From NCBI GenBank assembly GCA_026874595.1, contig CM049309.1, positions 47,848,079 through 47,912,078 of the forward strand: a DNA stretch of 64,000 nt, read 5' to 3'. Origin of the DNA: Sipunculus nudus (lineage: Eukaryota > Annelida > Sipuncula > Golfingiida > Sipunculidae). This document shows positions 1 to 56,430 of the stretch, piece after piece. The number at the start of each line of letters is the position of its first letter. The stretch's first letter is position 1. Both the position numbers and the translations under genes were made by a program. The notes beneath the pieces are model-generated. The model did no database searches. It was not told the DNA's origin and saw only the letters and a list, made by a program, of their open reading frames with translations.

Positions 1-26162
<26,162 letters not shown>

Positions 26163-28318: not shown

Positions 28319-30838
28319 TTGTATCCCCAGAAAAAAATGGGGGGGGGGGGGGGGATAGTATGGATTAAGCACAGTCGTGACGCTGCCGCTGCAGAGATTT
28401 CTTTCAGGCGACAGCTTAAAAAATATTTCACAGATCTTTACCAAACTTGGCATGTGCATAGATAAGGGTGAGAGGACGAAGCCTATTCAAACTGGGGTCA
28501 TGACCTTTATTAGCAGAGTGACATTGACTTTGAAAAGGTCCACAAATTCTTAAATATCTCGGGGAAATATTGATTGATTGATCCAAAAATCAACTTGACT
28601 GAAAGATCTTGGATAGTGTTGTCACGTACTGGAAACTAGTGGAGCCACTTATTATCCTTTTCTTGTATTCGTGCCTTTTATACCCCCATCATTGTCACTT
28701 GACAGTACAGCAATATAAGTAAAAAACTTATGGACAGATTTCTTTCATATAATACATATATATAGGTATGGGTTTTAGGATTATGTATATTTAAATTGGG
28801 GGCATGACCTTTCCTATGAGAGTGACATTGACCTTGAATGTTGTGATATATGGTTAATATCACAAAAAATCATAAATAACTCAATAAGGGATGCGTGGAT
28901 TGGTCCAAAAATCAAATTTACCGAAGATCTTGGATAGCTTTGTCTTCTGTGGAAGACAAGGTGGCGCCACCTTCTGTCCTTTGCTTGTTTTCACAACTTC
29001 TAATTCCCCATCATTGCCACTTGACAGTACTGTGAGCATTTATAATATATCAAAAGCTAATGGACAGATTGAGCTAAAAGTATGCATGTTCATTGAGCTT
29101 GGATTCCTCCATCTTGTATTCTAGACTGGTATGCCATCTGCAATCGTTTTTGTGTGGCGTCCATCTCGTGGTGTGCCACTCATTGTGGTTCGAATCTTAC
29201 TATATTGGTATCGGAATCAACGTCTATGTATAAAATGGGGTTACACTACTTCCAGTTTCTTTAATATCTCTAACGGGGTAAGACAAGGGGGTATATTGTC
29301 TCCGAAATTGTTTGCTTTATATACAGACTCCTTGTCGGCGAACTTGTTACTTTGTAACGCTGGTTGTTATGTTAGTGAGGTATGTATGAACCATTTAATT
29401 TACGCTGATGATATTTGTCTTGTTGCACCTAGTTCATCAGGCTTGCAGAAACTTTTAGATGTTTGCGTGTCTTATAGTCAATTACACAATATCTCGCTTA
29501 ATCCTGCCAAAACGTTGTATATGGTATTTAAACCCAGAAAATGTAAATTAACTTGCCCTAGTGTTAGTATTGATGACACACCGATCAAATATGCAAAAAA
29601 TGCAAAGTATCTTGGTTATATATTCAGTGACAGTTGTAAAGATGATGACGATATGATGCGTCAAACGAGACTTTTGTATGTACGCTCTAATATACTTTTA
29701 CGTGACTTTTCCCATTGTACTAAGGCTGTTAAAATTCAGCTGTTCAAAAGTTATTGTCTCGCTTTTTACTGCCCGTTTCTATGGACTGATTATAGTTCGT
29801 CTTGTTTCAATAAATTACGTGTTGCATTCAATAATGTGCACCGTAAATTATTAGGTTATCAACGGAATGATAGTGCTAGTCTTATGTTTGTGAAACATGG
29901 TTTTAATAATTTCGAGGCTGTGTTGAGGAAATGTATCTTCGCTTTTATTAGACGAACTGAATGCTCAGCCAATCCTCTCATACGCTGTCTTGTAAACAAC
30001 ATGAATGTACAAGCTGGTAGAATACAAACACATTGGAATGAATGTCTATATCATAAATAGAAGCGTGAATGTCTAATGATGCATCATAATGTTTTTTAAT
30101 TGTATCTTATTTTACTATACTATACCATTTTAATGTACTATTTTATATCGGCTGTGGCCTGAAATAAACTTCTATCTAAACTTCTATCTATCTATCTATC
30201 TGTACATGTGCTTTGGGTGAAAATTGATTATATCTCGGGGGTGGTTCAATGTAATGGTCCGAAATTTGGCATGTCTATCCATCTTGGGGAGTTTTCTCGT
30301 AAATCTGAGAGATGGCACCACCTACCTTACCGTTTACATAGTATAAATTAATTCCCTTTTCTCAGGAATGATTTGCCGGTTTTGCCTGTAATTAAGCTAG
30401 TCCATAGATCTTGGATACCTCCATCTTATGTTCAAGACTGGTGACGCCATCTGCAATCGTTTTCATGTAGCGTCCATCCGTACATTTGCTTTAGGTGAAA
30501 ATTGCTAATATCTGAGGAGTCGTTCAATGTGTTGGTATGAAATTTGGCATGTACATCCACGCTCCACCTTGGAGAGTTTTCTCGTATAGCAGACAGATGG
30601 CGCCACCTACCTTATTGTTTTCATAGTATTAATAAATGCCCTTTTCTCAGGAATGGTATGTCGTATTGGCCTGAAATTGTGTTTGTCCATAGAACTTTGA
30701 TACCTCCTTCTCATATTCAAGACTGGTGGCCCATCTGCTATGGTTTTCGTGTGGCATCCATTCATAATTTGATTTAGGTGAAAATTGCTCTCAACATATA
30801 AAGCAAACATGCACTCATTAAGATATAATAACGAGACC
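28319..30838 (+). mobile_element. Helitron-like element, interrupted by a LINE
   Basis: The left end TTGTATCCCCAG is followed by the same order of blocks as the element at 14031 (GCTGCCGCTGCAG, CCAAACTTGGCATGTG, GGACGAAGCCTATT, GGGGTCATGACC). Tandem core units with GGTGGCGCCACC follow, around 28960, 30430 and 30600. A poly-G tract sits at 28339-28354. No inverted partner, hairpin or CTAG end was found, so the right edge is approximate. The LINE fragment 29167-30200 splits one core unit. Confidence 0.55.
29167..30200 (+). pseudogene. 5'-truncated non-LTR retrotransposon, reverse transcriptase C-terminal part
   Basis: The frame from 29167 to TAG at 30058-30060 encodes about 297 residues of RT: GVRQGGILSPKLFALYTD (palm and fingers), YADDICLV with the catalytic Asp pair, then the thumb and C-terminal region. 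Upstream RT motifs, the endonuclease and any ORF1 are missing. A short 3' UTR has AATAAA at about 30164 and ends in (TCTA)n. The frame looks open to 29131 only because the host repeat happens to be open. The host repeat resumes after ATCT with GTACATGTGCTT. The clade resembles CR1/jockey-type elements, but I cannot assign it firmly. Confidence 0.85.
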
Positions 30839-37150: not shown

Positions 37151-38409
37151 ATCCAACACAAACTTTAATAAAATTTTGATTTCACTTTTATATACAATTC
37201 CTGTACCACAGTAACAATGATATTCAAAAAGAGTGATATGCAAAACTATATAGCATGAATGAACTGGAAAATCATAACAGTAAATTTCTTACACACAATT
37301 ATAAGATACAAACATCCTGGAAGCATACTAACGACTTACTAGTACAGACACTGAATGTGCCACAGATCGTAACTGTCCTATAAGCTAAATTGAGGAATGA
37401 AGGAGCGAGGGTTTTTTTTTATCTTTAAACATCATCCAAGAAGCTTGAAATCACCAGACTTTCAATGGATATGAAAAACAATGGCACTTGAAAACAGAGG
37501 AAATGAGACTACGTGTCTTGATTTAATATGAAATTCATGGCAAATAATATCAATTTAAATTATACAAAGTCACTAAAAAATTGTCACACGATATGATGGA
37601 TAACAGTGACAGGATCTATATAGGTCAGTTTTAAGGATAAATTTAACCGTAACATTTTGAAAATATTTTACACAAAATCATAGATAAAATCCATCTCCCA
37701 TGCCATATGTTGCGATTAGAAAAGGGGAGTCACTTGTCTAATGCTTGGTCACAGGAGTTCTAACTCCATGTGAGAAGTTTACCAGAATGATGGACACATC
37801 TGATACAAAACTGGTCTATGGGTAAAATCATTCCCCAATGCTAATGAAACTGAATAGATACAATTCATGTAAAAGGTAGAGGCCTATAATCAATTGATAA
37901 AAAATAAAACAAAATACATTCATTACAAATCGTGTCGATATATATATGGCATCTTATTTTGACATCTTACATTCTTTTAAGCAGCGACTTACAATGAGAA
38001 AAACAAACATTTTACATTCATTGTGCACTATCATGAAAGGACATGGACATTTTACTGTGAAAAAAGTCCCTTCTAATCTACATATTATACTGTCCAAGTT
38101 GAGAGACGACATAATAACAGATCCTGCTCGGTAAAGGGTCAAAGAACCCGACAACAAAAAATAAATCCCTCTTCTGTAAGGTGGAAGTCTGCCAGTATAA
38201 ATATGACATACAATATGTACAGTTAAGCTGCAGTACTTACAAATTTAACAAAGCTGGCACATACAGCTCACTGTGTTGGTTTTGGTCATTTGAAATCGTA
38301 TACAAAGACATGCAACACCATACCTGAAATAAAACGAACAATGCAAAATCAGGCACTGGAAAGCACATTTAACTTGCACAGAATATCCTTCATCTTTTAC
38401 AATGGAGGG
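37150..38409 (-). other. Probable 3' UTR of the 38410-43161 gene
   Basis: On the minus strand the stop at 38412-38410 is followed by non-coding AT-rich sequence. A possible ATTAAA signal reads on the minus strand at 37169-37164. The 3' end is an estimate without transcript data. Confidence 0.35.
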
Positions 38410-41400
38410 TCACCTTGGACTGCTGGTATTACTCATAATTACTTGATCTACAAGTTCCATAACCACATCAAAGTCCTCTGGATCTCTTACGTCTAGGTCT
38501 GGCAGTAACGTCTGCAGAAGGCGGGAAGTTTTACGACACAGCTGTTTCACACACTTTCTCGGAGACTGACACAATATGACTTCAATATGGAACCCGTTAT
38601 TGGAAGGGTCCACATTATCCAACTGGTCTGAGACTACAGCAATAATCTGGTCCATCATCCTTTCAACTGAATGTGTATGTTCATGAAAATTGTTTGGGTA
38701 TTCTAAAGCCGGAAAGAGCACTCTGAACAACTGGCACACTTTTTTCCGCAACTTTTCTACTCTACATTGATGTTTTTGATAAGCTTTGACAGGGAATTTT
38801 GGGTATGACATTACTGGTTCATTGTGCAAACAACAGGTGCACATACTGTGCAGTCCTAATAATTTACTTTTGGGTCTGAGATTGTAAGATTCCTCATCAG
38901 GTGTCCCAGTGTCAGTTTGACTTTGTTCACTGGCCCAGTCTGCCGGGCTTTCAATGCCTGACATTTCAGAGCTGCCCTGATCAGCATACATGTGTTTTTG
39001 GCTAATATACTCAAGGTAACTGAAGGCACTCCTGTTCCTTTTCTTGTGCATCATGCAAGGAGCCTCTGAAGAGGTATCAGAAAACTGTGAAGGACTGTCA
39101 TAGAAAAAGTCACTCTCAGTTCTGTCACTATAAAAATCATTGTCTATATGGTGTTTTGGCTGTCTTTTGGATCTGCGCAATGAGGAGCTACCTTTTTGAG
39201 AGTCGCCTGGATCTGTCACCGCAGCATTTGGTATGTAAGCTGGATCCTGTGACACCCTGGTTAGTCCCTCCCTATTTTTCCTTTTACATTTTGGCAGTTT
39301 ATTAACATCTTTTTCTGGCACTACACTGAGATAATCTGGGTCATAGCTACCTATCATAGAGAAAGCTCTCTTTCGTCCTCTTCTGGATTTCTTTTTGCTT
39401 TCTGGATCCTGGTTATCCGTGTTTGGCAATGACAATGTTCTCTTCCTCGGCCTCCCACGCCTTCCCGGCACCTTCTTATGATCACCTGAAGTACTAAGCA
39501 TTTTTGGAGAACTAACATTTTCTTCAGAATCACTTAATACTGAATGATTATTTGGAGGTGAAATCTCGGGTACAACAGGCATTATTTGCTCTTTCTGATT
39601 CTTTAGGCTTCCTGACTTTGGCTTTAGACTCTGCTCTTCTTTTGTACTTTCTGACAAGGCCTCTTTTTTATTTGAGAGGTTAGAGTTGGAACTTGTTAGA
39701 ACAGGACTATATCTGTCTTTCAAAAACTTTGTGAATTCACTGACAAATTCAACCTTGGGTCTTAATGTAAATGAACTTTTATCAGTTTGCTTGTAACTTT
39801 CCACACCATTGTGATAGTCTTCACTCTTAACTGAACGTTCATGGCTCAAAAATCGAACGGTTTCACTGGCCTGAATAATACCACAAGTCCTTCTGGGAAA
39901 CTGATCAGAAATACTGCTTCGCCCATAACTGTCATCTTGTGTATCATTAGAGTCTGATGAGAATGATTCTCTGTTATGAGGTTCATTTTGTAGGTTATTC
40001 TCTTTGTCTTTTGATTCTTTGTCCTTAGCATTTTTACATTCTACTTTCTCCAATAGTGAATTAAGTAATGCCCTGACAACATCGTTTTCATCACTTGATC
40101 TTTGTACTGAGGAAGTACCTCGGTTTTCAGCATCCTTTTCATCAGCATTGGGTTTGTCCTTCAAGTCCTTCCTTCTATTCTGACCAGTGCAAGGGTTGGA
40201 ATCCTGCTGTGGCATTTCATCAGCCGTTTCAACAAAATTTCCATTCTTATCACAAGAATCTATTTCACCTGTTTCCTTTTTGTTTTGGGCATCACTTAAA
40301 GTGTCAGTTCTTTCTGGACACCCCACTGCAGTTTTGCTTACACCTACCTGAAGGTGCTCAGGATTATCACTAGCATCATGGCCCTTGCACTCTGAGCCAT
40401 TTAATCTCAAAAGAACCTCCTCTACATCAGATTTACACACATTTTCCTCTTTCAATGATACATCAGATGTTTGATCCTCTGACTTGTCACTGCTGGCGGT
40501 TTTCAAAATTTCAACAGAACCGTTTTCACTGTTACTGTCTGTTTTACAAGGCAATTTGGCATCTGCTTGATTTTCTCCAGCAGACGTACTCTTTTCTGGC
40601 AATATAAAAATCTGTCCCTCTGCAATGTTCTGAAAATATGATTTTTCAGGTGATTCGCCACTGTCCTCTTCTCTGCTTTTACTGTTATCATCACAAACAG
40701 TTTCATTTATCAGTTTTATGTCCAATGTATTATTACTTACTGGATGATTAGTTTTGTTTTGAGGATTAGAACCTGTACATTCTTTTGATTTATCACTCTT
40801 GCATGCAGCTTCTGAGGTCGGCATTGATTCTATTAGGTCTGGTATTTCAGGTGAGCTGGCTTGACATAAAACATATTCAGTTCTCATTAATGAACTATCA
40901 GGACCTGGTGTCACCTGTGGATCATCTCCAGATTCAGTATATACAGATTCACAGTTGCTACTCTGTGAGGTTTCACTGACATAGCAGTCAAGCTTAGGCA
41001 TTTCCTTATCTTTCACAGTTTTTGAATTCTCATTAATTTCAAAATGTGCCAACACAGGTTCTGCAGTTGCCGTATTAACATCATCAGTCTCTATACACTG
41101 TGGGATATTAAACTGAGGTTCAATACAAGCAATTTCACATTTAGTTTGTTTTCCAGATGATTCTGTACTACTTTCTTTGGTTTGAAAAAAATTCGCTCCT
41201 TTGTTCTTTCCATGCAAATTCACCTTACCCTCATTAGCCGATGATTTAAATTTTTCATTCTCAGGTGTTGGATTACTGGATGCCAACATGGATTCTTGGA
41301 TATCTGGCCGACTCATGCTAATACTTGTAGGACTTTCCCTTAACTTGCATTTTTTACAGGCATTAATTTGTTCCACAGGGATACTGCCTTTTAACTGTGT

Positions 41401-43161
41401 TTTAGTTTGTAATCTGCAAACCTTTATTTTCAACTCAGTCTTTATCTGATATGACTGTTTCTTCTGTGAAATACTTGGATCAGGGGATAGTTTTGTTACC
41501 TGTGACTCACACTGGCCACTCTTTGAAGTTATTACATCTTGCTTTGAAGTTTTCAGTCCTTGTTCCATACACATTACATCTTTTGTCACAGAATTATCGC
41601 TATCAGTCACTTCTAAAGAGCTACACACTATCGACATTGGTTCCAATACAGGTGGATCATCTTTGGAACCACTACTGTTTTTAACATCAAAATATTCACC
41701 CTTATCTGGAGAATTTTCAGCAGCGAGGGGTTTTATCCTCTGTTTACCATTGTCACAATTATCTCCCTTAAAGAAGTTTAAAGTACTTTGTTGAGAATCA
41801 TCCAGAACAGCGATATTAACAGACATGTCTGACTTATATGACAAAGATTTACTTTTCAAGTCTTCCATTTTCTCTGAGCTACAGAAACTGTCACTAAATT
41901 TTTCACCTGCAACCATTTTGTCTGTGGCAGAATCGTTATGTAATACTGTGCTTTTAATATTATCTTTCTCACAGTTCACATTTTCAATATTCATTTCCAT
42001 CATATCCCTACTCTTTTCTGTACTTGTGTTCCTCTCTTCCAGATAAGCCTGTGAGTGATTACTTGTGTCCACTGGCTCATTCCTTTTCAATTCAGAACCT
42101 GTAATGTTTTCACTCTCTGGCAGTATCTCACCCATGTTGGCAGTTTTTCCTGATGTTTGGAATATTGTGATTTCTTCTGTAGAATGATGTACATTTTTTG
42201 ACAGTTCAAAATCATTATTGGTTTTGGCAGGAATATTTGGTGACAACTGGATGTCTGTTATAGGCTTTGTGCATGCTGATCCCTGTGTATCCTTCTGAAC
42301 ACTTTTATCAGTATCTGACAAGTCAAACACTTCCACAACCTTTTTGAGATCTTGGGAAACATCTATAAATGGAATTTTCTCTGTTTCTAATGTAGTTCTT
42401 TCATCATTTGTAGACTGTTTGTCTACAGCAGCACTTTCACTCGATCCTGCAGTCCAACTTTGTTCCAATTTACATTCTGCAGAACTATTGTCCATCGTTT
42501 TCTCTTTGTCCAAACCTGCTAAAGAAGCAGTTGGTGCATCATATTCAAAACAAACTTGAGTATCAGAGGTAGGAACACTTTTAGACTCATTATCAACCAT
42601 TTTTTCACTTTTGTTTTTTGTATCATTTCCAAGATGGCTACCTTGGGAAGTACTTTTGGAAATGTCTACTTCCCGAGCATTAAGCGGATCACAACATGAA
42701 GGCAATGAATCTTGTTCTTCAGAAAATGCTACCACTGGTACATCCTGTGTCTCTGCAAAATGACAGTCATGCGTGCTTTCTTCTTTGGTACGGTTAAATG
42801 CACTGGTACTTGTTTTGCCGGATGCACCAGTCACTGCACAACTTACAGATACACACTGTTGAGTTTTTTCTATGGATGCATCACCTGAAACCTCTTTGAC
42901 TGTAAGGCAGTGGGAATGTTCATCATTTGTATTACATCTCTCTTTATTTGTTTCATGTATAATTGTCTGACTTTTTTCTGTGTCACTCTCTGTTTTGCAG
43001 TCATCAGCCTTACTCCCATGCTCAAGACTAGTATTTTCTGCATACAGACCATGTGACACATTTTTGTAAGTCTGTTCAACAGATTCATCTTTTCCCACAA
43101 AACAGAGTTGGGTTTGAGATGACTCTTCACCTAATTGTTTCACTCCATTTGTTGTTTCCAT
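38410..43161 (-). CDS. Large hydrophilic, probably nuclear protein with AT-hook-like motifs and a duplicated C-terminal helical module (1583 aa, unrecognised)
   Basis: An uninterrupted 1583-codon frame in one exon. The ATG at 43161 is the first after an in-frame TGA (43200-43198) in the same exon. Residues ~1-1180 are Ser/Thr/Lys/Glu/Asp-rich without hydrophobic stretches, so probably disordered. Basic patches PGRRGRPRKR (~1230) and KKKSRRGRKR (~1255) are AT-hook or NLS-like, followed by DPDYLSVVP and DPAYIPNAA. A Cys cluster MCTCC lies at ~1440. The end holds two related helical modules (1468-1510 and 1538-1576) sharing V-x2-L-x-(R)K, L-x2-L-x-P-x-L and DQ-[IV]-I. No signal peptide or membrane helix. 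I do not recognise the family; DNA or chromatin association is inferred from the basic motifs. It is convergent with SMARCA4. Confidence 0.9.
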   Translation of the reverse strand: METTNGVKQLGEESSQTQLCFVGKDESVEQTYKNVSHGLYAENTSLEHGSKADDCKTESDTEKSQTIIHETNKERCNTNDEHSHCLTVKEVSGDASIEKTQQCVSVSCAVTGASGKTSTSAFNRTKEESTHDCHFAETQDVPVVAFSEEQDSLPSCCDPLNAREVDISKSTSQGSHLGNDTKNKSEKMVDNESKSVPTSDTQVCFEYDAPTASLAGLDKEKTMDNSSAECKLEQSWTAGSSESAAVDKQSTNDERTTLETEKIPFIDVSQDLKKVVEVFDLSDTDKSVQKDTQGSACTKPITDIQLSPNIPAKTNNDFELSKNVHHSTEEITIFQTSGKTANMGEILPESENITGSELKRNEPVDTSNHSQAYLEERNTSTEKSRDMMEMNIENVNCEKDNIKSTVLHNDSATDKMVAGEKFSDSFCSSEKMEDLKSKSLSYKSDMSVNIAVLDDSQQSTLNFFKGDNCDNGKQRIKPLAAENSPDKGEYFDVKNSSGSKDDPPVLEPMSIVCSSLEVTDSDNSVTKDVMCMEQGLKTSKQDVITSKSGQCESQVTKLSPDPSISQKKQSYQIKTELKIKVCRLQTKTQLKGSIPVEQINACKKCKLRESPTSISMSRPDIQESMLASSNPTPENEKFKSSANEGKVNLHGKNKGANFFQTKESSTESSGKQTKCEIACIEPQFNIPQCIETDDVNTATAEPVLAHFEINENSKTVKDKEMPKLDCYVSETSQSSNCESVYTESGDDPQVTPGPDSSLMRTEYVLCQASSPEIPDLIESMPTSEAACKSDKSKECTGSNPQNKTNHPVSNNTLDIKLINETVCDDNSKSREEDSGESPEKSYFQNIAEGQIFILPEKSTSAGENQADAKLPCKTDSNSENGSVEILKTASSDKSEDQTSDVSLKEENVCKSDVEEVLLRLNGSECKGHDASDNPEHLQVGVSKTAVGCPERTDTLSDAQNKKETGEIDSCDKNGNFVETADEMPQQDSNPCTGQNRRKDLKDKPNADEKDAENRGTSSVQRSSDENDVVRALLNSLLEKVECKNAKDKESKDKENNLQNEPHNRESFSSDSNDTQDDSYGRSSISDQFPRRTCGIIQASETVRFLSHERSVKSEDYHNGVESYKQTDKSSFTLRPKVEFVSEFTKFLKDRYSPVLTSSNSNLSNKKEALSESTKEEQSLKPKSGSLKNQKEQIMPVVPEISPPNNHSVLSDSEENVSSPKMLSTSGDHKKVPGRRGRPRKRTLSLPNTDNQDPESKKKSRRGRKRAFSMIGSYDPDYLSVVPEKDVNKLPKCKRKNREGLTRVSQDPAYIPNAAVTDPGDSQKGSSSLRRSKRQPKHHIDNDFYSDRTESDFFYDSPSQFSDTSSEAPCMMHKKRNRSAFSYLEYISQKHMYADQGSSEMSGIESPADWASEQSQTDTGTPDEESYNLRPKSKLLGLHSMCTCCLHNEPVMSYPKFPVKAYQKHQCRVEKLRKKVCQLFRVLFPALEYPNNFHEHTHSVERMMDQIIAVVSDQLDNVDPSNNGFHIEVILCQSPRKCVKQLCRKTSRLLQTLLPDLDVRDPEDFDVVMELVDQVIMSNTSSPR

Positions 43162-43206
43162 AATGACACCTTGACACCATTTGAATGCGGTTAATGCTCA
43201 GGCTAC
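43162..43206 (-). other. 5' UTR part of the coding exon and its splice acceptor
   Basis: The minus strand reads TTTATTTTGCAG|GTAGCC with the exon starting at 43206, then 45 bases with an in-frame TGA before the ATG. At least one upstream non-coding exon is therefore expected at higher coordinates. Confidence 0.65.
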
Positions 43207-45580
43207 CTGCAAAATAAACAAAATTAAATTAGCTGTGCAGTTGCAGATTATTAGCAAGTAAATGATTACTGGAAGTAAGCCTGTATCTATAACTATCTAA
43301 TCTATTAAATAAATCTATTAAATATTAAATTTTCACTCATCCTGAATAAACACTTGTGGGGGATCAAAATTTTCAGGAAACGATTGCATGAATTATCCTG
43401 AAAATTCTACATTACAGAACTATTCTTTATATACTTTTTTATTTGGGCTTTGAGGAAGGTAAAGATTAACTGAACAAGTCACCGGGAATAACTGTACAAA
43501 CTGTACTCTAAACTGTATATTGAGGTAGGTCAGATGTACTTTGAACAGGTCCATGTCCAGGGACCTGAATGAAAGCATATATAATATTTGTCCCCTGCTC
43601 TGTGGTGGACAGTGATTTTGATTTATCTGTCTGTTTGTCTGTCCTTCAGGTTTATTTGTTACTGTGCGATAAATTTCCTAAATTTTATCCCATTTCATTC
43701 AAATTTGGGTCAGTGATTGCTCTCATGCATACCTTGGTTGGGATTTGTTCCTATCTGAAAAATAATTCTCTCAAGCTAAAAAACAAAATTATCAAATTTT
43801 GGTCCAATTTCTCAATTTGTCTTAAGTTTTCATGTTAGCTTGCAGATTTCTCCACATGTCGTAGTAGATTTTGGTCCTATTTCTCAATGTGTTTTAGTTT
43901 TTTTTGTCTGCCAGCAGATGTCTCCACATGTCATAGTGCATCTGTTTAAGTTTTCATGTGCCCTCAAAATTTTCTCCACATGTCATAATTTTGGTTGCTT
44001 ATCAAGCATGAAAGACAACTAGATCCCAAAGCGGAGGACATTAATTCCATGAATTTGCTTGTTCATAGCAGTTGTTGCATGGATTGTCCTGACACATGGT
44101 GTGCACATTAATCTTTGACATAATAAGATCCAGATGAACAATACCAGAGAAGCCAATTTCAATTTCTTTCATTGTACAGTGTATTAATATTAAAATGACT
44201 ATATCAGGCATGTCACAGATTGAGCTCTGCAGTCAAAAGGTTAATATGATCATTAAACTGTCAAATAATGAATATTATAAAATGCACTGGTTAAATATAA
44301 CAAATGACTGATCTGCTCATCAGAATGTAGTGGACACAGTTGCAAAATTTATATTACAGAGGCCAAGCAAAATCCACCTAAATATTTCATCTAAATATAA
44401 AATTTAACAGGATATATTCAGTTTAACTGTATAGACTGTGCAGAATATTGGTGTGCTTACGGATGGGCACAATTTTGTTTTGCAATCTGGGGGTTGGGGG
44501 GGGGGGTGGGGGGTGGGGGGGGGGGGGGGGGAGGCCGACAATAAACATTGGGGCAATTTGCTTGGGGACTTATCCTCCTTTTCAAATATCCCCCCATATC
44601 ATGGTATTACAGAGGATAATTAATATTCTTGGGGAACCTTCAGTACAAGTTCTCATTTGATACCTTGAAAATAACATGAAATATCTCATTTCTATACTGT
44701 ATAGCTGGGGTCAATAATGTTGTTGAAACGAGAATCTTGTCAAATTAACACATCCCGATGCCATCACTTTTAAAAGTTCCCTGTCAGAAACTCTTGGGGA
44801 AAATCAAGTTACCAACTGAATCAATAATTACACATTTTTGTTAATATAATTGGTGACCTAGAATGAAAGGAACACATTTTAGGGGGATTTAAACCCTTAT
44901 TAATCACAGTTCTTCCCCTATTCCAAAAATATATTTCTTTAGGTTTTATGAGCTGAATTTTCATTTAAAAAAGGACATTCTTTTATATTCAAGATGTGTC
45001 AGATTTAATAATGTGTTGGTTGCCCCCCCCCCCCTTTCAGTTGAAAGTGGGGAAAGGAATTGTCCTTACATCCTGTTTGCCACCACATGGCTCCCATACT
45101 AATGAATCACTAATTGCTCGAAACATCCCTTGTACCTGCAATGTCATTGCACGCAGTATTATGGAGGTTTAGTTCTGAAATCTGTCTGCAGTAAAGAATG
45201 CATATTTTGTGATATATACCAATTACTGTTTGCAACAAGTGATTAACATCAATTCTCTCTTGAAATAGAGCTTAAATATATACGCATTACTCATGTGACA
45301 TATACCCATTTCCGTGCAACTCATGTTACGTTACTCACGTTACACATTAGAAAAAGCTTCAAAATTTAGAAAAGCAGACACATTTTTTTTTGTACACAAA
45401 CATATAAAGCACCACATGCAAATATGACACGGGAGTTACAGCAGACATGGCTTTTAAGTGAAGAAAAATTTCCTTCCTCTGCATACCACTCTCATTAAGA
45501 ACAGGGAAATTGCAAAATGAACGCATCGCCACCGAAAAAATTCTTCATTCTTTTAAACTTTAAATTTATATGTTCTTGTG
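43207..45580. other. Probable 5' intron of the minus-strand gene; repeats only
   Basis: Includes a diverged three-copy ~85 bp tandem repeat at 43795-43995 (CTCCACATGTC at about 43851, 43923 and 43974) and a G-rich tract at 44489-44531. No exon was recognised. Confidence 0.5.
43795..43995. repeat. Diverged ~80 bp tandem repeat, three copies
   Basis: Each copy has TTTCTC, TTTAAGTTTTCATG or similar, and CTCCACATGTCRTA. Part of a degraded repeat. Confidence 0.6.
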
Positions 45581-47726: not shown

Positions 47727-48897
47727 CAAGAATTTCTTGGCACTGCAGACAACCCCCCCCCCCTTAAAAAATAGGCCCCCCCCCCCCATCTTCAGCAGCA
47801 TATACTGACACTTGACAAGCGACCATGGTTTCTTCCATCTATCAATTAGAGAAACAATATTTTTCACCAAATATGGAAATATTCAAGGTAAAGGCCACTC
47901 TCATAGGAGAGGTCATGATCCCAATTAAAATACATGTCATTCCATAACCTATATCTATGTATGTGTCACAGGACAAACTCCGATCCAGTAGAATCGTCGA
48001 TCCTACCAGGACAAAGTCCGATCGGACTTTCTACTAGGAGACACTCTGATCAGACTTTCTACTAGTAGGATCAGCGATTCTACTAGGACAAACTCTGATA
48101 ATAGCCTCTACTAGGACAAACTCCGATCAACCAGAGACCACAACATAATTAGACTTTCTACTAGTAGAATCGGCGCTTCTACTAGGACAAACTCTGATCG
48201 TAGTCTCTACTGGGACAAACTCTGATCGTAGTCTCTACAAGGAGAAACTTACCATAATTTATCTAATTTCTGAAACCTGAGATTAAAAAGGGACCCATGG
48301 GTCACGGCGCTCAGCTGTAATATATGATAAAAAATATGATTTTGAAATGAGGCACATGCTGGTTTTGTGTGGTAATAAATATAAGCTGTATTATGAGTTG
48401 TTGGTGTTTCGCTTATGTATGATTTTGATAGTTTCTTTGGAGACAGGGAAGAGATTGATTTCATTTATTTTATTAACAAATTGAGTGCTATTGTCATACA
48501 GATTTTGACTTGGCCATATAACTGATAGGCAGCACATATAAATTAAGAGTTTTACTATTTATTAAAATTTAATAACAAATATTGTGTCAAATATAATTTT
48601 TATTAAAAATAATAAGAGAATCATGATTTTTTTTAAATAAAATATAACTGAAATGATTATTAAAATAATATTATAGAATATATTCATGAATGCATTCATG
48701 AATACATTTTGAAAGTATTTGCACTGGTATTCAAACACTTATATTTTTACCTGAATTCCCATTCTTATGCAAGAAATTTTATAATGGAGTACATATTCAT
48801 ATTCATATTCAAATACATTTGCAAAGTATTCGCACCATGTCTGGTATTTATTCAGTTTTAGCCAAACAATGCTGTTGAGAATCCAAAATATAAACAA

Positions 48898-49312
48898 AGG
48901 ACCCATGGGTCACAGCGCCCAGCTTAAGTTTGAAATCTTTGCAAATGCAAAATATGAAAAATATTCTATTGTAATGTTTTTCATTTATATAAGCATATGA
49001 GAAGCTAAGAGGAAAGGGGCCCTCCTACTTGGTTATAGTAAAGTTCTAAATATATGATTGCAAACTAATACTCTGACAAGACTGTCATGAAGAAAAACAG
49101 TAAAAGTTTTGAGATACTTTGATGCATATAAAAAATTTACAGACGGACAGGCAAGTGGATAGAATGGACTAATACCTTTATTTCACTTTCAAGGGAATAA
49201 TGCATTTAAGTTTATATATAAGCTAATTTTTTTGGCATATCCACTTTTTCCATTAATAGTTTTTATCCGATTCATTTTTTATTAACAAATTATAGTCAGC
49301 TGAGCTAAAAAT
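48898..49312. mobile_element. GGGACCC...CAGCTGAGCT repeat family, short copy
   Basis: About 415 bp from AGGACCCATGGGTCACAGCG to GTCAGCTGAGCTAAAAA. The first ~330 bases match 34599-34930, including GAGAAGCTAAGAGGAAAGGG and CCTCCTA. A second start of the family lies just upstream at 48289. Confidence 0.6.
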
Positions 49313-49494
49313 GAATAAAACACAGTAATATTTTAACAAAATGATTTATTTATGTATTTGAAAAAAATAAAGAAAAATAAATACAAGCACATATGACAAA
49401 ACACAATATCCTACGATTATATATACAAGTCACAGATATACATCTAAATGTTTCATTCAAACTTATTCATACAATTTTATTTGATAAAAAAAAT

Positions 49495-49905
49495 TACACA
49501 TATAAGCACAAGCACATGTAAGCACAAACTGTTTATCTACTTGTATATATGTAAAATTCCTGAATATTGATCTAAAATATTTCATTCACATCCTGTCTTA
49601 AATTCACAGCAAAAAAATGCAATATATACATCCACCTGTACTTATGTTTATCAATTAAACCACTGATACAGAATGTGGGTATTTTCAAATAGATCTTGGA
49701 TTCTCAGAAATACACATCCCTTGGTTAAGTACAATTCATACAAGTTCATATTCTAAAAAATACAAATAAAAGCACAAGCACATATAAGCACAAACTGTTT
49801 ATCTACTTGTATATATGTAAAATCCCTAATTTAAGGATAGATCTAAAATATTTCATTCACATCCTGTCCTAAAATCACAGAGAAAAATTGCAATATATAC
49901 ATCCA
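49495..49905 (+). repeat. Two-copy ~160 bp direct repeat
   Basis: Both copies read AGCACAAACTGTTTATCTAC, TTGTATATATGTAAAAT, then ATTTCATTCACATCCTGTC and GCAATATATACATCCA. They start near 49500 and 49755, inside the TIR transposon. Confidence 0.8.
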
Positions 49906-50824
49906 TATTACTGTGTTTAATTTATTCATAATCTCTGATTTTAGAAATTAAGACCATTATGGTAAGTTTGTCCTAGTAGAGACTACAATCGGAGTTTGTC
50001 CTAGTAGAAGCTCTGATCCAACTAGTACATTTATATATGATTGGGAGTTTTTCCTAGTAGAGATCACGATCGGAGTTTGTCCTAGTAGAGGCTGTGTTCG
50101 GAGTTTGTCCTAGTAGAATCGCCGATCCTACTAGTAGAAAGTCTGATCGGCGTTTCTCCTAGTAGAAAGTCCAATTGGACTTTGTCCTAGTAAGATCGAC
50201 GATTCTACTGGATCGGAGTTTGTCCTGTGACATATATGCATAACATGCAAGAAATTTGTCCCTTAGTTTTTCACATAATAAAATGCTCACAATACTGTCA
50301 AGTGGTAATGAAGGGGTATTTAAGGTGCAAAAACAAGAAAAGGACAGAAGGCTGTGCCACCTGTTTTCCACAGAAGACAAAGCTATCCAAGATCTTTGGT
50401 CAATTTGATTTTTGGACCAATCCGTCCATCCCTTATTGAGATAAAAATTAAGATTTTTTGGGATTTTTACCAAATACAGAAATATTCAAGGTCAAGGCCA
50501 CTCTCATAGGAAAGGTCATGTCCCCTATTTAAATATTCATCATCCAATAACCCATTTCTATGTATATGCATAATATAAAAGAAATCTGTCTGTGCAAGAT
50601 TTCTTGAGTTATTTAAGAATTTGTGTGATTTTCTCCAAAAATGAACAATTTCAAGGTCAATGTCACTCTCCTGGTAAAGGTCATGACCCTATTTTAAATA
50701 GGCTTTGTCCCCTCACCCTATCTATGGACATGTCAAGATTGGTAAAGTAATGTGAATTATGTTTTGGAGTTATCTAGCCTGAAAGAAATCTCTGCAGCGG
50801 CATTGGCATGACCGTGTCTAAACC

Positions 50825-54525: not shown

Positions 54526-56430
54526 AGTTTGGGGCAGGTACTTGTACCTGTACCTAGGTACACCATTGAGAGTACCTGTACCTTTCTGTCATGAGTAGGA
54601 AGTACCTGTACCTGTAACTAAAGTACCTGTACCTGGTATAAAGTACTCCAGGTACATGTATAATACTGGAAATGGACATCAGATTTGGGTTAAGTATATG
54701 TACATAGCTGGCATCCCTATCAAGACAGTCACCTAACCGTGGCATGGGTTATTACCAATCTATAATTCAGGGTTGGGTTTTAGGCTGCCGAAAACAGGTT
54801 TTAGGCATGGCAGTGCCCAAACCTGCCTTAAACTGCTGTTAACTGCCTAAAAGCTAAATAACCCTTACATATGACATGCAGTTGAAACAAGTTTTATTGT
54901 TACAGAGCTAAATACACTAAAACAGGTTCAACAAATTAAAAGTGAGGAACTCTTCATTCAAACCAAAAATTAAACCATCATAAGAAAAATGAGCAACAAA
55001 TGATAACAACACTACTTGTCCAAAAGAACACAGTTCTCTGTCAGTTTCAGTTTGTTTCACAAATCATGTCCTGAGGTGTCCCACCTCTGCATGCCATTAT
55101 GTAATTATGTTACTGATATACTTACACAGGTAATCTCAAGTGTAAACATACAGCACTATCATCAATGAAAGAATGACCACACTGTAAGCTTTTAACAGGG
55201 TACTGTGGTTGGGAATATTTTCAGGAGGGGTTAAATTTTGAAATATGTGAAAGATGAGTTATCCCGGAAAAAAAATTAGGCTGACTCAAGAACAGTTTCC
55301 AGCACAGAGGCTCTTATTGCATCATCCTAGTCATGTAAAACTATGGAAGTTCACATAAATCTCTATTAGAAAACAGTAGTGTGAAATGACCACAGTGGGT
55401 CTTATGATTAAATCACACTGATAAATAGTAATCAATCTAATCAAGCACGGCTTCCTCCTCTGATACCCATCCTTAGTATATGGCTACTGGAGGCTCTATT
55501 ACATCATACCAGGTAGCAGGGATTTCATCAGGAAACCCATAAGATCATGATAAAGATATTAACTTGGCCTGTGAAACCATGTGCCATACAAACATGGTCT
55601 CCTCCTCAGAAACCTATACAGGCTCTTAAAATACTGAAAGATTCCAGTCAATTGGAAATTATGCAGTAGTAATACCTGAAACCTTCCCAGAGCCTAGTAA
55701 AGCCTTGTGACTTCAGCATCCCAACCAACAAATTTAAATGAAAATAAGTTTTAGGCACTTTAGTGCCTAAAACCTATTTAAGCGGGGCAGTTTTTACCAG
55801 ATTATAACCTATGGTTAAAACCTTCCTGCAAAAAAACTTGCCAAACCTGCCAATCTTTAATCCCAGCAGCCTCTGAAGTTGACAGGGCTGACTGGGCTGG
55901 CAAGCTGGTCTACCAGTACCACCAGCCTGAAAAGAGGAAGTTCACAGTAGCAATTCCAGCACACAGTAAATTGTAACCAGCAAAGCACATGAATAGGGTT
56001 TGCCAACATGCCCAATGTATAGATACTTGTTGTCTAGTATTCATAGAACCCTGGCGAAGAGTAAATGAAGAAATGAAGAAAATACAGATTATGTCAATGA
56101 ACTCTCAACATCCGCCAAAAAAAAAACTTTTTAATTGACAGAAAAACACTCCCCTGATCAAGCACTTAGTTCAGTTGCTGTTTTTCTCAAAACTTTCCCC
56201 AGGTGATTTTCTGTAATTAACATGTTTATTTTTCCTAATACAGACATAAGATTCATGATATTTTAGTATATGAATGAAAGTTTAATATTTCTTTATTAAT
56301 AGCTTTGTAAAATTTTATCAGCTTTGTATGTTTATCCCTTTCATTAAAGGCTTTCCTGTATATTTGTGATTCCTTTATTGAGATGTACCTACCGGTAGGT
56401 ACTGTCACATGTACCTGACCCCAACCCTGA
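54526..56430. mobile_element. Composite repeat with GTACCTGTACC satellite and TTTTAGGC arms
   Basis: The left GTTTGGGGCAGGTAC and right GTACCTGACCCCAACCCTG oppose each other. The left end carries at least six GTACCTGTACC-type words (54536-54660). An inner segment starts CAGGGTTGGGTTTTAGGC (54769) and has TTTTAGGCACTTTAGTGCCT and AAAACC palindromes near 55749. Boundaries are approximate. No transposase frame. Confidence 0.45.

Follow-up and report, generated by a model that had tools for sequence, protein, structure and literature searches.

A gene of Sipunculus nudus with a single coding exon for a putative AT-hook protein with two similar halves in its C-terminal tail

What kind of protein is encoded by the 1583-codon open reading frame that lies on the reverse strand of a 64,000-nucleotide stretch of Sipunculus nudus DNA (the window in what follows), and is its C-terminal tail built from two copies of one helical module? 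The original prediction had proposed a single-exon, chromatin-associated scaffold ending in a tandem protein-interaction domain of no recognized family. We took up the gene model, the composition of the protein, the likeness of the two halves of the tail and the search for relatives in turn; the features are collected in Table 1.

The open reading frame and the composition of its product

Reading the frame confirmed the position, strand, and length that had been given for it. The start codon is preceded by an A at -3 and followed by a G at +4, GC content at the three codon positions is 0.457, 0.395, and 0.311, uneven as for coding sequence, and the log10 chance of a frame staying open over 1583 codons is about -49.6 at the base composition of the window. 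An in-frame TGA lies 13 codons 5' of the ATG within the same exon, shortly downstream of a good, pyrimidine-rich candidate 3' splice site; the ATG would thus fall within an internal or the last exon and all of the coding sequence within that exon, as had been predicted, and the splice site would imply at least one upstream exon and a spliced 5' untranslated region. The ATTAAA listed in Table 1 is one of several possible poly(A) signals, a nearer one being at 37527. On sequence evidence alone, we regard the frame as a real, ordinary-looking animal gene.

Table 1. Positions in the window of the features discussed in the text.
Feature	Positions	Strand	Basis or remark
Single-exon coding sequence, 1583 codons, ATG to TGA	38410..43161	-	ORF reading
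In-frame TGA 5' of the ATG	43198..43200	-	
Predicted 3' splice site TAATTTTGTTTATTTTGCAG, first exon base 43206	43207..43226	-	sequence only
Possible poly(A) signal ATTAAA in the 3' UTR	37164..37169	-	sequence only
Canonical AT-hook GRRGRPRKR, residues 1233-1241	39439..39465	-	letters checked; shuffles
Second basic patch RRGRK, residues 1260-1264	39370..39384	-	
Mildly Cys-rich stretch, Cys 1441, 1443, 1444, 1466, 1476	38734..38841	-	
Helical module, first copy, residues 1468-1510	38632..38760	-	helix, P-x-L loop, helix
Helical module, second copy, residues 1538-1576	38434..38550	-	
Patch with FTLRPKVEFVSEFTKFL, residues 1080-1160	39682-39924	-	no Pfam match
SMARCA2/4-like (Brahma/BRG1) SWI/SNF ATPase gene	11239-22640	+	left of the studied gene, convergent
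Array of ~130-146-bp repeats containing GGTCATGAGGTCAAAGGTCAAGGTCAC	15254-16042		
Tandem array, ~80-bp unit, 4 copies	18024-18331	+	
Tandem repeat, 121-bp unit, 7.9 copies	24102-25054		
Reverse transcriptase fragment	29125-30060	+	RVT_1, E 2.6e-15
Inverted-repeat element	47960-50236		

The composition is skewed toward S (13.5%), K (9.1%), E (9.0%), and D (7.7%), with T and N also abundant, and the hydrophobic content of the protein, taken in 40-residue windows, exceeds 0.30 only from about residue 1461 onward; judged by this composition, everything before that point is probably disordered. The sequence outside the tail had been called low-complexity. Strictly taken, that does not hold: an entropy filter run over 12 residues at 2.2 bits marks just 50 of the 1583, and composition-biased is the apt term.

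An AT-hook is defined by a GRP core between basic residues. GRRGRPRKR has such a core with basic flanks and holds the sole GRP of the whole protein; the core [RK]RGRP[RK] arose in 1 of 20,000 shuffles of the protein. The surrounding residues 1201-1300 form the most basic of 16 tabulated 100-residue blocks, with 24 K+R vs 12 D+E. Of the AT-hook-like patches that had been noted, this one is canonical, whereas the second, RRGRK, lacks the GRP and is not. Pfam hmmscan did not report the AT-hook in the full protein, the tail pieces, the islands, or the N-terminal 720 residues; a model as short as that of the AT-hook can go unreported by this search. The Cys-rich stretch that had been placed before the tail is indeed the densest Cys region of the protein but is mild, with 5 Cys in 51 residues.

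Separately, the patch at residues 1080-1160 includes KVEF, which we take to be a loose PP1-docking pattern of the RVxF type; it is one of two matches to that loose pattern in the protein.

Two similar halves in the C-terminal tail

Aligning residues 1460-1525 with 1526-1583 gave 36 columns, 13 of them identical (V, L, K, L, L, P, L, P, F, V, D, Q, and I) and 23 positive, and thereby reproduced the pairing of residues 1468-1510 with 1538-1576 from which the original prediction had started. With full shuffling, the BLOSUM62 local score of 41 was equaled once in 2000 trials, as were the BLOSUM45 and PAM250 scores (1/2000 each); among shuffles that kept the hydrophobic/polar pattern, only 5 of 5000 attained 41, so the likeness of the halves goes beyond a shared amphipathic pattern as well as beyond composition. 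These shuffle counts are to be read in the knowledge that the pair was chosen after looking: among 2775 pairs of non-overlapping 60-residue windows of the protein, it ranks 14th, the 13 pairs that outscore it (best score, 58), some of them overlapping one another, coming from stretches of biased composition.

Most of the signal is borne by helix A, for which the comparison of the two copies was equaled by 5 of 2000 full and 1 of 2000 pattern-preserving shuffles. Helix B alone is not significant (180/2000 and 341/2000, respectively), and even the non-corresponding pair of helix A and helix B of the first copy does better (91/2000 and 156/2000). Likeness at the DNA level is gone, the score there being reached by 85 of 500 shuffles, and the same codon is used at 5 of the 13 identical residues; any duplication of the halves must therefore be old. 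When 18-residue windows of the protein are ranked by hydrophobic moment, the top 15 fall within residues 1468-1557.

For the 154-residue tail, AlphaFold2 predicted helices at positions 29-53, 60-84, 105-130, and 132-150, which gives each half a helix-turn-helix hairpin, and two further helices of four residues each (55-58 and 90-93); the confidence of this model, the sole one to contain both halves, is low (mean pLDDT 48, pTM 0.37). The first copy, modeled in alignment with the second, yielded a two-helix hairpin at mean pLDDT 75.5 and pTM 0.43, which is not an independent test of likeness because the alignment presumes that the copies are alike. Foldseek returned no PDB match at E ≤ 0.001 for either model; at E ≤ 10 there were 58 matches for the tail model, which is too weak to interpret, and six for that of the first copy. 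As to the duplicated helical module that had been proposed, then, the shuffle statistics support it and it is consistent with the hairpin predicted in each half, but the similarity, as judged from the sequence, is real and modest, and helix B contributes nothing significant of its own.

The second copy matched Pfam DUF4798 (PF16055) at E 0.0062, its 17 bits falling short of the family cut-off of 27 bits. The match spans 31 residues of that copy and positions 52-82 of the 100-position profile, 18 residues remaining thereafter in both query and profile. It fades as context is added (E 0.014 and 0.046 for two intermediate pieces, 0.037 for the longer tail, and 0.069 for the 154-residue tail), and the first copy alone had no DUF4798 match in Pfam. 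Three of ten pattern-preserving shuffles of the second copy matched some Pfam family, the best at 0.017 and to another family; none reached 0.0062, ten controls being too few to settle the matter. With ten controls and several overlapping queries, the match is not evidence, and we treat it as a lead only. A literature search for DUF4798 or PF16055 found no paper.

Relatives and readings of the protein

The full protein matched no Pfam, NCBIfam, or PADLOC family at E ≤ 10 and no PDB sequence at E ≤ 1, and the 154-residue tail matched no PDB sequence at E ≤ 10. Further Pfam queries, with the 154- and 296-residue tails, either half, a pair of longer pieces of the tail, four islands elsewhere in the protein, and its first 720 residues, gave nothing at cut-off; nor did any NCBIfam model reach its cut-off with the full protein or the tail. 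Sub-threshold Pfam matches besides that to DUF4798 were to BMFP (E 0.13-0.26), KH_N4BP1_1st (0.18, first copy), and Vel1p (0.14, N-terminal part). The earlier statement that no known family fits thus holds for Pfam, NCBIfam, PADLOC, and PDB sequences, which sets its scope. Several families were also considered (bHLH, PAH, KIX, LCOR/PALI, RESF1, NEXMIF, and ICE1), none of which the Pfam scans gave at cut-off.

A profile of the two halves found five aspartate aminotransferases in the PDB at E 1.3-1.4 over 25 columns, which we take as chance. Against the six-frame translation of the window (1631 frames of at least 25 amino acids), the sole other frame above the inclusion threshold was 55782-55973 on the forward strand, at E 0.0095 over 15 residues; it was dropped as a relative because 1 of 100 shuffled profiles scored equally well. 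Seven stretches in viral contigs and 24 in prokaryote genomes fitted a peptide pattern, and none was confirmed; phage records held no relatives. Such absence is as expected for an animal gene, and with no relative found in viral, prokaryote, or phage sequences, conservation supports no part of the protein. Our literature search found no paper on a disordered invertebrate chromatin scaffold with an AT-hook and a C-terminal helical hairpin (at least five of six features).

Besides DUF4798, three known systems bear comparison. Human AHDC1 has 1603 amino acids and one coding exon; its two AT-hooks lie at 396-408 and 544-556, and it ends in a PDZ-binding sequence at the C-terminus (PMC12476444). 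The present protein is like AHDC1 (Gibbin) and other DUF4683 proteins in its similar length, its AT-hook, and a single coding exon behind what would be untranslated 5' exons; unlike AHDC1 as there described, it has one AT-hook and a helical tail, and in Pfam the full protein gave no DUF4683 match at E ≤ 10. The chromatin-linked PRR14 binds PP2A-B56 via [L/F/M]xxIxE in a conserved region near its C-terminus, and the most conserved element of Tantalus is [L/F]ETIFE (PMC7272351). A loose [LFM]xx[IV]xE, akin to the PRR14 motif, occurs five times here, one of them in the second copy (FDVVME); [L/F]ETIFE is absent from the protein, and Pfam gave no Tantalus (PRR14, PRR14L) match. Finally, the harmonin homology domains of the RTEL1 type are two helical domains in tandem (PMC10853778), as is predicted here, each domain being a compact five-helix bundle of ~70 residues (PMC8048344). 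Unlike those, the copies here have ~40 residues and two helices apiece, predicted at low to moderate confidence, and no harmonin homology domain was matched in Pfam or among PDB sequences.

The most economical account of the protein, to which we would give a probability of roughly 0.4, is that of an animal nuclear adaptor. The AT-hook and the adjoining basic stretch (residues ~1220-1300) would sit on AT-rich DNA or chromatin, an association suggested by the one good AT-hook and its basic surroundings. The first ~1200 residues, mostly acidic and rich in Ser and Thr, would serve as a long disordered tether, and the last ~120 would form two related helical hairpins that stem from an old internal duplication and pack against each other or against a partner, which would thereby be brought to chromatin. 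What the analysis shows of this is the open frame with its sequence signals, the AT-hook motif, the statistical likeness of the halves, and the helix-turn-helix predicted for each; the nuclear location, the binding of DNA, the disorder, an origin of the halves by duplication and not convergence, and the recruiting role are inferred, as are the scaffold role and the view of the tail as a tandem protein-interaction domain.

The chief competitor is that the gene is a diverged member of a vertebrate or insect family whose models are too narrow, with a domain already known under another name. We hold this to be a serious if somewhat doubtful prospect. A comparable single-coding-exon AT-hook protein does exist in AHDC1 (PMC12476444), and none of the ten shuffles did as well as the second copy against DUF4798; yet that match lies under the cut-off, weakens with context, and has no counterpart in the first copy, some Pfam family was also matched by 3 of the 10 shuffles, and NCBIfam offered nothing and the PDB nothing credible. 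Another view denies the duplication: an ordinary amphipathic helix bundle or coiled coil might have come to have similar spacing in its halves by convergence, which would suit the concentration of signal in helix A, the lack of significance of helix B, the absence of DNA similarity, and the choice of the pair after looking. The rarity with which pattern-preserving shuffles attain the score, and the L-x-P-x-L and DQ-[IV]-I positions that recur in the same order in both halves, speak against convergence, which we think unlikely. A pseudogene or chance open frame is scarcely credible: the failure to find a homologue in viral, prokaryote, and phage sequences would accord with it, but the codon-position composition is that of coding sequence and the odds against so long an open frame are very large.

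A bolder reading would take the tail for a new pseudo-symmetric four-helix domain, made by duplication of an L-x-P-x-L / DQ-[IV]-I hairpin, in an invertebrate AT-hook chromatin family without a vertebrate counterpart; we consider this quite improbable. Unnamed disordered nuclear proteins are common in animal genomes, and as no family model tried recognized the faintly duplicated helical tail, the product counts as an unnamed protein, which falls short of establishing a new kind of machine. We regard the result as genuine but modest. Were both halves retained in orthologues, the tail would amount to a small interaction domain without a name, carried by a chromatin protein, and would merit its own family entry and a screen for partners.

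Surroundings in the window

Matches at E ≤ 0.01 were obtained in three of the eight frames scanned elsewhere in the window, to an SNF2 domain, a bromodomain, and a reverse transcriptase. The first two of these belong to the SMARCA2/4-like gene, which also includes a frame (17895-18161, forward strand) that matches BRG1 at 2e-18; this neighbor says nothing direct about the function of the studied protein. The reverse transcriptase fragment, situated between the two genes, is likely a retroelement remnant. The window yielded no tRNA in a tRNA scan and no match in an Rfam scan.

Repeats are found at several places. The ~80-bp array, whose other copies are 62-78% identical to the reference copy, repeats what looks like the end of a SMARCA-like exon and its 5' splice site (GAGGATTTCCTCATCTA...) into the next intron, and the 121-bp tandem repeat (97% matches) lies downstream of the SMARCA-like bromodomain frame. 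The inverted-repeat element has arms of 169 nt that are 92% complementary and 1939 nt apart, with 28-bp subrepeats. The GGTCATGAGGTCAAAGGTCAAGGTCAC in the array of ~130-146-bp repeats holds what we take to be AGGTCA-type half-sites in direct repeat.
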